A DNA stretch of 64,000 nucleotides from Thermoleophilia bacterium (GCA_028285405.1 JANQPH010000032.1:1-64000); one strand, 5' to 3'; numbered from the stretch's first letter, positions 35,151-38,226 are shown. Numbers and translations: made by a program. The notes: generated by a model from the sequence alone, not told the origin.

Positions 35151-35315
35151 ATGGCCAAGCAGGGACCGCGCCAGGGGATTCGGTTGGAGTCGACCGCGGG
35201 GACCGGTCACGTCTACGTGACCGAGAAGAGCAAGCGCAACACCCCGGACCGACTCGAGGTCAAGAAGTACGACCCGATCGCCCGCAAGCACGTCACCTAC
35301 AAGGAAGCGCGCTAG
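35151..35315 (+). CDS. rpmG: Ribosomal protein bL33 (cysteine-free type)
   Basis: 54 residues: [19 protein letters not shown] at the N-terminus, then the [20 protein letters not shown] core and KHVTYKEAR at the end. The four zinc-binding cysteines of C+ L33 are absent, so this is the zinc-independent form. A ribosome-binding site GGGAG lies 6 nt before ATG. Its TAG stop is the first nucleotide triplet of the structured element described at 35313. Confidence 0.94.
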
Positions 35316-35557
35316 CAAGGAGGGCACAGAGCCCTGGCCCTGTGCCGCCGACGACCCCTGGTCGTCGCATCGATGTCTCCGGGGCTGGTTGCCCGACGCG
35401 CAGGCCGCAGTGCCGGCGTACTCCCGGCACGAGCTATTCGGAGCGCGATCGCGCGATGAAGGCAAATCGCGCCTGGATGGCGCGAGTCCCTTCAGCCAGG
35501 AGGGCTGGTGTGGCCGAATCGTGCCGCAAGGAGTGCGCCGGTGATCGGCCGAAGTCG
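35313..35557 (+). repeat. Structured intergenic element E1 (same family as E2 and E3)
   Basis: Non-coding element beginning at the rpmG TAG. It opens with CAAGGAGGGCACAGAGCCC, then GC-rich hairpins, then the block CGCGCAGGCCGCAGTGCCGG (35398 on). A hairpin region built around palindrome GCGCGATCGCGC (35443-35454) follows, then a 6-bp stem at 35492-35497/35503-35508, and the conserved end GTGATCGGCCGAAGTCG at 35541-35557. Short open frames through it encode Arg/Pro/Ser-rich peptides that differ between copies, so it is not a convincing gene. The last ~70 nt match E3 with only about six differences, all transitions. Confidence 0.72.
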
Positions 35558-35676
35558 GGACAACCCGACTGCATCACCGGCGGGGACCTGGACAAACGGC
35601 GACCAGCTCCGCACCAGCCGGCGCGACGGGCTGCGCCCGTCGGCAACACCAGGCGGGGCTCTGTGCCCTCATCCCC

Positions 35677-35855
35677 CAACTTCGGCCGGTCACTTCACCC
35701 TGAGGGCACGCCCAGGGGGCATTCACAACGCGGACCGATTGCCCTCAGGGCGAAGCACTGCGGCCTGCGCGTCGGGCAACCAGCCCCGGAAGAACTGAGG
35801 CGACGACCAGAGGTCGTCGACGGCAAGGACCGGGGCTCTGTGCCCTCCTTGCCTA
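35677..35855 (-). repeat. Structured intergenic element E2 (short family member)
   Basis: It begins at the TAG of the M23 peptidase gene with GGCAAGGAGGGCACAGAGCC and shares the first ~100 nt with E1. It then replaces the middle of E1 by one large hairpin whose arms CTTCACCCTGAGGGCA and TGCCCTCAGGGCGAAG (plus-strand reading, about 35692-35756) are nearly complementary. It ends with the family terminus GTGACCGGCCGAAGTTG. Oriented outward from its host gene, as are E1 and E3. Confidence 0.66.
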
Positions 35856-36722
35856 GATCTCGGTCTGCGACCTCGGCTTGGGGTCGACGGCCACGAGGTG
35901 CTGGAACGGGTTGGTGTTCGGACCGCCCCGCTTGCCGAGCATGATCTCCAGGTGGAGGTGCGGCGCGCCGTAGCTGGCGTTGCCCGAGGAGCCGTTCCGG
36001 CCGATCACCCGGCCTGGCCACACGGTGTCACCGGGCTGCAGGCTGCGCGGGATCGAGCTGAGGTGGGCGTAGTAGTACCAAGTCCCGCCCGGATCCCGGA
36101 TGTAGACGTAGAGGCCACCGAGGCCGCTGTCGGTCCGGCGCAGGTCCATCACCGTGCCGTGCGTCGCGGACAGGATCGGTGCGCCATGCGGCGCCAGGAT
36201 GTCGGTCGCGCCGTGCATGCCGGTGCTCCGCGGCGCGAAGTAGTCGTTGAAGTAGCGATACTCGACCGACTTCGGCATCGGGAACGTGACCAGGTACTCA
36301 GAGACCGCCGAGCCCGCGGCGATCGGCGCCGGTACGCCCAAGCGGCGCTGCAAGGCGGGGGTCGCGACCCCGGTCACGCGCAGCCCCAGCTTGCGCTGGG
36401 CTCGCCGCACCGCCTTGACGGTGCTGCCGCCGTAGCGGCCGTCGAGCCGAATGCGGAAACCGTTCGCGCGCAGGCGCCGCTGCAGCTGCATGACGCGCTG
36501 CCCGCGGGCGCCGCGCCTGATGACGACGTGCTTGCCGCGGGGTGCAGCGGCAGCCGCTCCCGCGCCCTCCGCTGGGGCTGCCGACTGTCCGGTCGACGTC
36601 CCCTGTCGAGAGGGGAGGTCGATTGCCGCCGCCTGGCCACTGGCGACGATCAGTATCAGTACCGCGAGCGCAAGCCAGAGGATCTGGCCTCGCGCAACGC
36701 GAGCGATTTGTGGCCGGGGCAC
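35853..36722 (-). CDS. Secreted M23 metallopeptidase with peptidoglycan-binding domain
   Basis: Probable cell-wall endopeptidase of 289 residues, GTG start. It has an N-terminal signal/anchor (hydrophobic LWLALAVLILIVASGQAAA, 15-33) and an Ala-rich linker. A PG_binding_1 domain spans about 65-130 (RRGARGQRVMQLQRRLRANG). The LytM/M23 domain follows from about 150: HGATDI (HxxxD zinc ligands) and HLHLE (HxH) are both intact, so it should be active. Transcribed divergently from ferritin, with a good promoter at 36761-36789. Its stop codon opens element E2. Confidence 0.9.
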   Translation of the reverse strand: MPRPQIARVARGQILWLALAVLILIVASGQAAAIDLPSRQGTSTGQSAAPAEGAGAAAAAPRGKHVVIRRGARGQRVMQLQRRLRANGFRIRLDGRYGGSTVKAVRRAQRKLGLRVTGVATPALQRRLGVPAPIAAGSAVSEYLVTFPMPKSVEYRYFNDYFAPRSTGMHGATDILAPHGAPILSATHGTVMDLRRTDSGLGGLYVYIRDPGGTWYYYAHLSSIPRSLQPGDTVWPGRVIGRNGSSGNASYGAPHLHLEIMLGKRGGPNTNPFQHLVAVDPKPRSQTEI

Positions 36723-36760
36723 GATCGGTGCGGCCTCCCAGGTCGCCGATCGCGCGGCAA

Positions 36761-36789
36761 CGTATCAGGACCGCCCCCGGGCGCGTCAA
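36761..36789 (-). promoter_or_regulatory. Predicted sigma-70-type promoter of the M23 peptidase gene
   Basis: On the minus strand, TTGACG (36789-36784) is separated by 17 nt from GATACG (36766-36761). The -35 matches the consensus at five of six positions, the -10 at only three. It lies about 40 nt upstream of the GTG start. It shares the short divergent region with the ferritin -10. Confidence 0.5.
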
Positions 36790-36833
36790 CCCCAGAGCCC
36801 ACGAAATCAACGATGGTGGTCCGGGGGCGCTCG

Positions 36834-36839
36834 TATAAT
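36834..36839 (+). promoter_or_regulatory. Perfect -10 box upstream of ferritin
   Basis: TATAAT at 36834-36839 stands out in 70% GC sequence and lies 35 nt before the ferritin ATG. No convincing -35 is found 16-18 nt upstream, so an activator or an alternative sigma factor may be needed. A strong ribosome-binding site, GAGGAGG at 36861-36867, follows. Confidence 0.55.
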
Positions 36840-36874
36840 CGGGTCCGTCCACACGACGACGAGGAGGAGCCCGG

Positions 36875-37375
36875 ATGCCGGTCTCGGACAAGGTTGCTGA
36901 CGCCATCAATGCCCAGATCGGCCGTGAGCTCGAAGCCCACCTGCAGTACCTGCAGATCTCGAGCTACTTCGACTCCCAGGCGCTTCCGGCGCTCACGATC
37001 TTCTTCGCCAACCAGGCTGAAGAGGAGCACGAGCACGCGATGAAGTTCCGCGGGTACCTCATGGACCAGGGGGCCGAGGTGGCCATCCCCGCGCTCGCCG
37101 CGCCGCGGATCACGTTCGAGAGCTCCGAGGAGGCGGTCGCGCTCAGCCTCGCGTGGGAGGAGGAGGTCACCGGGCACATCAACGACCTCGTCAAGCTCGC
37201 GCAGTCGCAGGACGACCACGCCACGTTCTCGTTCCTGCAGTGGTTCGTCGACGAGCAGGTCGAGGAGGTCTCGACGATGAGCGACATGCTGCTGATCGTG
37301 AAGCGGGCCGGCGAGGTGCGGATGCTCGACGTCGACGCGATCGTGGCGCGGGGCGAGGTCGGCGACCACGACTAG
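36875..37375 (+). CDS. Ferritin
   Basis: Non-haem iron-storage ferritin (Ftn type) of 166 residues. The four-helix ferroxidase residues are visible: Glu in GRELEAHLQYLQIS (about 18), EEEHEHAMKF (Glu and His of the di-iron site, about 50-57) and later Glu in WEEEVTGHIND. Oxidises and stores Fe(II) as a ferric mineral in a 24-mer. It has a TATAAT -10 and a strong ribosome-binding site, suggesting high expression. Downstream lie two tandem structured repeats starting right after its TAG. Confidence 0.94.
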   Translation: MPVSDKVADAINAQIGRELEAHLQYLQISSYFDSQALPALTIFFANQAEEEHEHAMKFRGYLMDQGAEVAIPALAAPRITFESSEEAVALSLAWEEEVTGHINDLVKLAQSQDDHATFSFLQWFVDEQVEEVSTMSDMLLIVKRAGEVRMLDVDAIVARGEVGDHD

Positions 37376-37588
37376 TGAGCTGAACCCGAGAGCGATCGGT
37401 TCCCCGGACCGATCGGTCGCAGGTGTTCAGCGAGAGGACGCAGCCGGGTCTGGATGACCCGGACCGTCCGGTTGTCCGCATGAGCTGAACCCGAAGGCGA
37501 TCAGTTCCCCGGAACGATCGGTCGCAGGTGTTCAGAGAGAGGACTCGAGCGGACGCCCGGATGACCCCGGCCGTCCGGCTGGGCTCAT
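37376..37588 (+). repeat. Two tandem 105-bp structured repeats after ferritin
   Basis: Copies begin at 37376 and 37481 with TGAGCTGAACCCGA. The first ~65 nt of each are nearly identical, and the rest diverges in sequence while keeping hairpins. Copy 1 has the 8-bp stem CGATCGGT/ACCGATCG (37393-37400/37408-37415) enclosed by CTGAAC/GTTCAG, then CCGGGTC/GACCCGG. A partial inverted trace (CTGAACATCCGC) follows near 37590. No coding potential is evident. Could be tandem terminators or a processed 3' RNA of the ferritin transcript. Confidence 0.68.
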
Positions 37589-37622
37589 CCTGAACATCCG
37601 CAAGCGGCTGCCGAGACGACCA

Positions 37623-37860
37623 CGACTTCGGCCGGTCACCGGCGCACTCCTTGCGGCACGACTCGACCACACCAGCCCTCCCGGCTGGAGAGACTCGCGC
37701 CATCCGGGCACGATCAACTCATCGCGCGATCGCGCGACGAGTTGATCGTGCCGGGAGTACGCCGGCACTGCGGCCTGCGCGGAGTCGACAGATCCAGAAC
37801 GAGAGGCGCCACGAGCTTTGCTCGTGCACCCGAAGGGCCGGATCTGCGACTCCTTGCCTA
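37623..37860 (-). repeat. Structured intergenic element E3 (same family as E1)
   Basis: It begins at the aroH TAG with GGCAAGGAGTCGCAGATCC and ends with the family terminus GTGACCGGCCGAAGTCG at 37639-37623. The block around CGCGCAGGCCGCAGTGCCGG matches E1 exactly. In the middle is a near-perfect 46-nt hairpin: a 14-bp stem (37707-37720/37739-37752) enclosing the palindrome TCGCGCGATCGCGCGA. With the tandem repeats it fills the 482-bp gap between ferritin and aroH; I see no gene there. Confidence 0.72.
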
Positions 37861-38226
37861 TTCAGGCAGGTCCATCCTCAGCTGCCGCGCCTCACCCAGG
37901 TAGACGTGCCTGACCTCGACCCCAGGCGGCGGGTAGCAGTGCGCCAGCACCCGCACGCACCGCGGTAGTGAGCCGGTCACGGGAATCTCGCGCGTGCACA
38001 GCAACGGCACCCCTGACAGCCCCATCTCGCGCGCCGCCACCGCCGGGAAGTCCGAGACCAGGTCGGCGGTCGACGTGAAGATGATCGAGACGAGGTCCTC
38101 GGCGGTCAGGCCGTTCCGGCCGAGTAGCTCTCCGAGCAGCTGCGCCGTCGCCGCCCGGATGGCCTCGCTGGTGTCCTCGGGCACCGAGATCGCCCCCCGG
38201 ATGGCGTGAAGCCGCGACTCGCTCAC
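37858..38226 (-). CDS. aroH: Chorismate mutase, AroH type
   Basis: Rearranges chorismate to prephenate, the substrate of TyrA at 30718. 122 residues with the full Bacillus-type AroH pattern: the ESRLHAIRGAISVPEDT N-terminus (catalytic Arg in AIRGA), the LLGRNGL segment, FTSTADL, FPAVAARE, and the C-terminal VRVLAHCYPPPGVEVRHVYL. GTG 38226 overlaps the rluB TGA (GTGA). The upstream open frame is a shadow of rluB. TAG stop opens element E3. Confidence 0.94.
   Translation of the reverse strand: MSESRLHAIRGAISVPEDTSEAIRAATAQLLGELLGRNGLTAEDLVSIIFTSTADLVSDFPAVAAREMGLSGVPLLCTREIPVTGSLPRCVRVLAHCYPPPGVEVRHVYLGEARQLRMDLPE

Follow-up and report, generated by a model that had tools for sequence, protein, structure and literature searches.

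What kind of element begins exactly where a gene ends? The question arises from a 64,000-nt stretch of DNA of a Thermoleophilia bacterium (GCA_028285405.1 JANQPH010000032.1:1-64000; the window), in which a sequence-only reading had described three related non-coding elements, E1, E2 and E3. These were said to start with (G)CAAGGAG at the TAG stop codons of rpmG, an M23 peptidase gene and aroH and to share the 3' end GTGAYCGGCCGAAGTYG, and a dispersed terminator, a processed 3'-end RNA and a mobile element had been offered as their possible roles. The elements are real, related and close to where they had been placed, with the starts and the common end as described (Table 1). E1 and E3 are 89% identical across 161 nt, E1 and E2 are 89% identical in their first 99 nt, and E1 is a chimera, with a 5' hairpin of E2 type and a 3' part of E3 type. 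In the last ~80 nt, E1 and E3 differ at six positions, all of them transitions (read directly from the alignment), which agrees with the earlier account. We refer to the family of E1-E3 as F1; two tandem copies of a partner family, F2, lie in the same interval (35313-37860) and had been overlooked.

Table 1. F1 and F2 copies in the window and the genes next to them.
Feature	Position	Strand	Description
rpmG (ribosomal protein L33)	35151..35315	+	native C-terminus; profile matched to its end (49/49)
F1 copy E1	35315..35558	+	A-type 5' hairpin module and B-type 3' module; begins at the rpmG TAG
F1 5' module remnant	35638..35670	-	between E1 and E2; matches E1 nt 21-54 at 82% identity
F1 copy E2	35676..35852	-	177 nt, all A-type; begins directly past the TAG of the M23 peptidase gene
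M23-type peptidase gene	35853..36722	-	upstream of E2
Ferritin-like gene	36875..37375	+	followed by two F2 copies
F2 copy 1	37373..37477	+	begins at the TAG of the ferritin-like gene
F2 copy 2	37478..37584	+	diverged; in tandem with F2 copy 1
F1 copy E3	37622..37857	-	all B-type; begins directly past the aroH TAG
aroH (chorismate mutase)	37858..38226	-	upstream of E3; complete C-terminus, profile 117/117

Both families are spread through the genome. The source assembly comprises 2.41 Mb in 57 contigs, is 97.6% complete and has 73% G+C; copy counts combine genome searches with fetched stretches. Used as a query, E1 finds 57 places in this assembly, and the central F1 motif, ACGCGCAGGCCGCAGYGC, occurs ~54 times genome-wide with at most one mismatch. 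The F1 covariance model reaches E-values down to 1e-38 in this genome (1.2e-35 for E2), and E1-E3 are members of the family far beyond chance; the expectation of many copies that a covariance model would detect was thus borne out. F1 units measure 170-245 nt and read GCAAGGAG, hairpin I, GACGCGCAGGCCGCAGYGC, hairpin II, GTGAYCGGCCGAAGTYGG. Each hairpin comes in at least two types, A and B, and the family is modular, since E2 combines A with A, E3 B with B, and E1 A with B. Inside E3, a very long near-perfect palindrome (window 37703-37756, arms 93% complementary) stands in place of part of the B-type hairpin. F2 is shorter, ~105 nt, and consists of CTGTGAGCYGAACCCGAG, a hairpin, CGCAGGTGTTCRGCGAGAGGACGCA, a second hairpin and ACCGTCCGGTT; it has ~48 copies genome-wide, and a reversed control pattern gives 0.

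The two families are interlaced. F2 lies antisense within F1 at two recurrent positions, F1 is found inside the terminal hairpin of F2 or past its first 18-20 nt, and F1 units also follow each other head to tail with a period of ~178 nt. At the nested F2 sites, to which this observation is confined, a target duplication is either lacking or an ambiguous 1-2 nt. The ends of F1, GCAAGGAG and AAGTYGG, are not complementary and thus form no terminal inverted repeat, and that of F2 is at most short and imperfect. Many contigs begin or end in or beside F1 or F2 copies (C10, C14, C23, C29, C30, C39, C41, C53 and C56); given that the assembly breaks on these repeats, the real copy number is probably higher.

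Sequence comparison across the copies points to a conserved fold, with two covarying hairpins per F1 unit and three helices in F2. Among 28 full A-type copies, the F1 structure holds 97.2% standard pairs. Twelve of its pairs have changed on both sides, compared with 4.9 in shuffled alignments (0/500 shuffles match), and the number of cells changed on both sides is 46 versus 10.8. Sliding the partners by a single column lowers pairing to 46%. Hairpin I illustrates the pattern, as its stem occurs as AGCCCC/GGGGCT, AGCACC/GGTGCT, AGCTCC/GGAGCT and AGGCCC/GGGCCT. In F2, 13 of the 23 pairs have changed on both sides among 30 copies (60 cells versus 18; again 0/500), and pairing collapses likewise when the structure is slid. 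The prediction of covarying stems thus holds for both families. Conservation in F1 is highest in the unpaired core, with 98% for the internal loop and 94% for the linker, followed by the stems (83-89%) and the hairpin loops (61-63%). The fold is also strand-specific: the given strand of F1 is more stable than its complement by ~12 kcal/mol in 28/28 and 9/9 copies, and that of F2 by 4.5 kcal/mol in 31/31 copies. Together, covariation, conserved core and strand-specific folding speak for selection acting on a single strand in its folded form. RNA would be the simpler reading of this strand than single-stranded DNA, because G-U pairs are many, occupying ~7-12% of helix cells in RNA-style folding.

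The position of the elements relative to genes is equally constrained. Gene ends rest on gene calls by a script that scores codon usage and was trained on the window, and spacing was scored for the 26 F1 copies whose 5' ends lie between -40 and +48 nt of a co-directional upstream stop. Nineteen of these begin at -4 to +2 nt of the stop; five begin 15-37 nt before it, so that the reading frame enters the element, and the remaining two lie at +8 and +19, where a fragment of F2 intervenes. The stops at the 19 exact junctions are TAG in 15 cases, TGA in two and TAA in two, while TAG has a share of 33% at other genes (binomial p ~5e-5). The view that the elements start at stop codons therefore holds for many copies, the stops being mostly TAG but also TGA and TAA. 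At two loci (L032:5632-5635, behind groEL, and L060:1673-1676), the element start GTAAGGAG replaces GCAAGGAG and yields a TAA stop. F2 behaves similarly, with 12/17 copies within 4 nt of the stop, which F2 itself often supplies. Elements also start 1-3 nt past the mature end of three tRNA genes, two for tRNA-Leu and one for tRNA-Thr.

This proximity is a property of the 5' end. Near stops, F1 5' and 3' ends differ significantly (14/23 versus 1/14; Fisher p = 0.002), and 13 of the 14 F1 3' ends that face a stop keep 19-70 nt from it. The proposed outward, sense orientation from the gene is upheld. Of ten F1 3' ends that face a gene start, only one lies less than 100 nt from it; the copies therefore occupy the ends of transcription units, not operon interiors. 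Confinement to convergent 3' ends, as had been suggested, does not hold: further copies are located between genes of the same direction or behind tRNA genes, and a minority is antisense or divergent. Each gene of several convergent pairs has its own sense copy (rpmG/M23 peptidase, ferritin/aroH and the pair at L035). NCBIfam profiles reach their last position or stop at most two residues short of it in L33, ClpP, NusG, L7/L12, malate synthase A, chorismate mutase and GroEL, so these proteins end natively and the elements sit at the native end of the gene without truncating it. The flanking genes further include CofC, an F420-dependent oxidoreductase and an Xer-like tyrosine recombinase gene (L092:389-1381) whose reading frame enters an F1 copy. 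Genes of the CofC and F420-dependent kind, together with the 73% G+C, would suit an actinobacterial host. The recombinase scores under the cut-offs for XerC, XerD and integron integrase, and is an ordinary type of gene. Native hairpins after element-free genes of the same genome start 4-59 nt past the stop; replacement of a native terminator therefore leaves the zero gap unexplained, and we rejected it as the origin of the spacing.

We looked for both families outside this genome. A DNA search of 100 relatives gave no F1, and neither did a covariance-model search of 198 relatives from 95 genera, all other than that of the source genome, with strict filters and scoring of only the best candidates per genome; the sequence-only reading had proposed relatives as a place to search for further copies. 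The F2 core, allowing up to three mismatches, gave a single match of two or three mismatches in each of six of the 198 genomes, where the reversed control gave three matches, and we read these as chance. An exact F2 core was absent from a GTDB-wide scan of contigs, whereas the gapped F1 pattern found one site, in a Verrucomicrobia MAG (L113:7729-7813). Both core blocks of F1 occur there, correctly spaced and 8 nt past a TGA in open frame, but the site is the only copy in its genome; we read it, too, as chance. Viral contigs contained no F2 and 11 isolated matches to an 18-nt F1 motif, which are likely to be chance as well. In the sets searched, F1 and F2 are thus known from one genome only. 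Rfam 15, at gathering and relaxed thresholds, returned nothing but weak, sub-threshold miRNA and snoRNA matches to the hairpins, and we rejected membership in a known Rfam family, consistent with the earlier statement that none fits.

A genome of another genus in the same taxonomic family (G002) contains a repeat of its own, ~165 nt long (GAGGCTGTCTCAGA...TCTGAGACAGCCTC), with 24 copies found (loci L130-L153, for example L130:1501-1670). Similar to F1 and F2, it begins at stops: 9/24 copies start 0-1 nt past a co-directional stop, and one copy was found at the stop of the ferritin gene of that genome. Its sequence is unrelated, and unlike F1 and F2 it forms one long, true palindrome and carries terminal inverted repeats; a TTA/TA target duplication is possible in two copies (L131 and L133).

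Repeats that supply stop codons are already known. Most REPs are located downstream of genes, in many cases no more than 20 bp from both convergent ORFs, and the termini of GTAG REPs often supply a TAG stop (PMC3733652). In pneumococci, the modular BOX elements encode the stop codon of 36 genes, and SPRITE repeats cluster near the 3' termini of coding sequences (PMC3049150). The earlier impression that no family has this pattern agrees with Rfam but goes too far, since REP and BOX elements are precedents. F1 and F2 resemble REP/BIME repeats in high copy number, palindromic make-up, mosaic clusters and location at gene 3' ends. However, REPs of the GTAG and CGTC families are single palindromes of 20-40 nt that carry a GTAG/CGTC tag and are accompanied by RAYT (Y1) genes, while F1 and F2 are multi-hairpin units of 105-245 nt that start with GCAAGGAG and CTGTGAGC rather than a tag and have no Y1 gene in the genome. 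With BOX, RUP and SPRITE they share a size mostly below 250 nt, a conserved transcript fold and a non-autonomous character (PMC3049150), and F1 shares modularity with BOX; the sequences are unrelated, BOX and RUP carry terminal inverted repeats, which F1 lacks, and the passages of PMC3049150 consulted do not describe the sense polarity or the -4 to +2 nt spacing of F1 for these repeats. Because the tag, size and Y1 features of REPs and the terminal inverted repeats of MITEs are missing, F1 and F2 fall outside these named families, and we discarded both assignments (that of MITE with regard to F1). In kind, they are probably comparable to BIME, BOX and RIME repeats.

A mobilising enzyme was searched for in the same 97.6%-complete genome. 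The Y1 transposase (PF01797) has no match, while control genomes match; reverse transcriptase (PF00078) and the IS110 transposase (PF02371, Transposase_20, DEDD) are absent from the genome, and no transposase occurs among ~55 scanned flanking genes. We therefore set aside a retroelement or group II intron derivative on account of the missing reverse transcriptase, and an IS110/IS1111 or guide-RNA derivative on account of the missing Transposase_20. Twister-sister, hammerhead, attC, HEARO and group II intron were also considered and, with no match, dropped. A scan for terminators with a stem and U-tract found 1 site, with 1.1 expected, and paired R boxes (RYYYAAC/GTTRRRY) are lacking in two alignments (A1 and A2) that we read directly.

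We consider it probable that F1 and F2 are a mosaic of non-autonomous mobile repeats that now serve as 3'-UTR structures. An unlikely alternative, though one with real weight, is that they are purely parasitic derivatives of single-stranded DNA transposons, similar to REP or PATE, in which a transposase acting on the sense strand makes use of the fold and insertion at gene ends simply does no harm. Strand-specific hairpins, an invariant unpaired core (linker 94%, internal loop 98%), intergenic location and nested sites with no visible or only an ambiguous 1-2-nt duplication would all suit such a parasite. The genome nevertheless lacks the Y1 transposase, harmlessness predicts broad distances past the stop rather than 19/26 copies within 7 nt, and the ~7-12% of G-U helix cells are more natural in RNA. 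We regard it as quite unlikely that F1 and F2 are instead functional 3'-end RNAs, acting as terminators or stabilisers, that spread by gene conversion and tandem duplication without transposition. While compensatory evolution of the stems, location at the ends of essential transcription units and the separate sense copies in convergent pairs speak for it, exact joints to unrelated flanks are hard to obtain in this way, as are antisense F2 at two positions in F1 and F1 in the loops of F2, and there are copies that run antisense or lie far from any stop.

When IS1272 inserts, it takes the place of inverted repeats at the target and leaves no target duplication (PMC5678879). An insertion of this type, in which the element took the place of a native terminator hairpin, would match the repeated entry of F1 into F2 hairpins or their replacement by F1. 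Hairpin targets are common to F1 and the IS1272/IS1182 type; the latter make no target duplication, which at the nested F2 sites is either lacking or an ambiguous 1-2 nt, and they are autonomous insertion sequences with terminal inverted repeats, of which none was identified here. As F1 has no such repeats, no such transposase was seen near the copies and native hairpins start 4-59 nt past the stop rather than at 0, this explanation is highly improbable. Integron-type attC sites, or another cassette system of a tyrosine recombinase, are barely credible: a hairpin with conserved foot, internal loop and variable end is attC-like and the Xer-like gene has F1 at its end, yet the paired boxes are absent, the flanking genes are ordinary housekeeping genes rather than cassettes, and the recombinase scores far under the cut-off for integron integrase.

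The mosaic of mobile repeats turned 3'-UTR structures accommodates these observations as follows. F1 (170-245 nt) and its partner F2 (~105 nt) would together make up one mosaic of folding elements across the genome, having spread through insertion or copying by machinery that may lie outside the enzyme families searched for here; nesting and unrelated flanks lead us to infer this mobility. Once inserted, an element would be co-transcribed as a 3' UTR, and its folded RNA may end or protect the transcript, as a terminator or a barrier to 3' exonucleases without a U-tract, a role suggested by sense polarity and position at transcription-unit ends. Copies at these ends would then be tolerated or kept because the fold ends or protects the transcript. 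The three roles initially offered are not mutually exclusive, and the sequence data fit a mobile repeat turned 3'-UTR or terminator-like structure. A further proposal, which we hold to be doubtful and rather unlikely, is a folding RNA or single-stranded DNA mobile element whose machinery recognises stop codons and mature tRNA 3' ends with fixed polarity, by an undescribed mechanism, and which would appear again, with other, unrelated sequences, in related genera.

The copy list and covariance model reported here are ready material for term-seq and insertion-polymorphism tests. F1 and F2 make it testable whether short bacterial repeats arrive at gene 3' ends by targeting or by selection, and whether they turn into the transcript ends of essential genes. 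Moreover, the second genus, with its unrelated repeat family in an identical position, speaks for a general rule and against a peculiarity of a single sequence.
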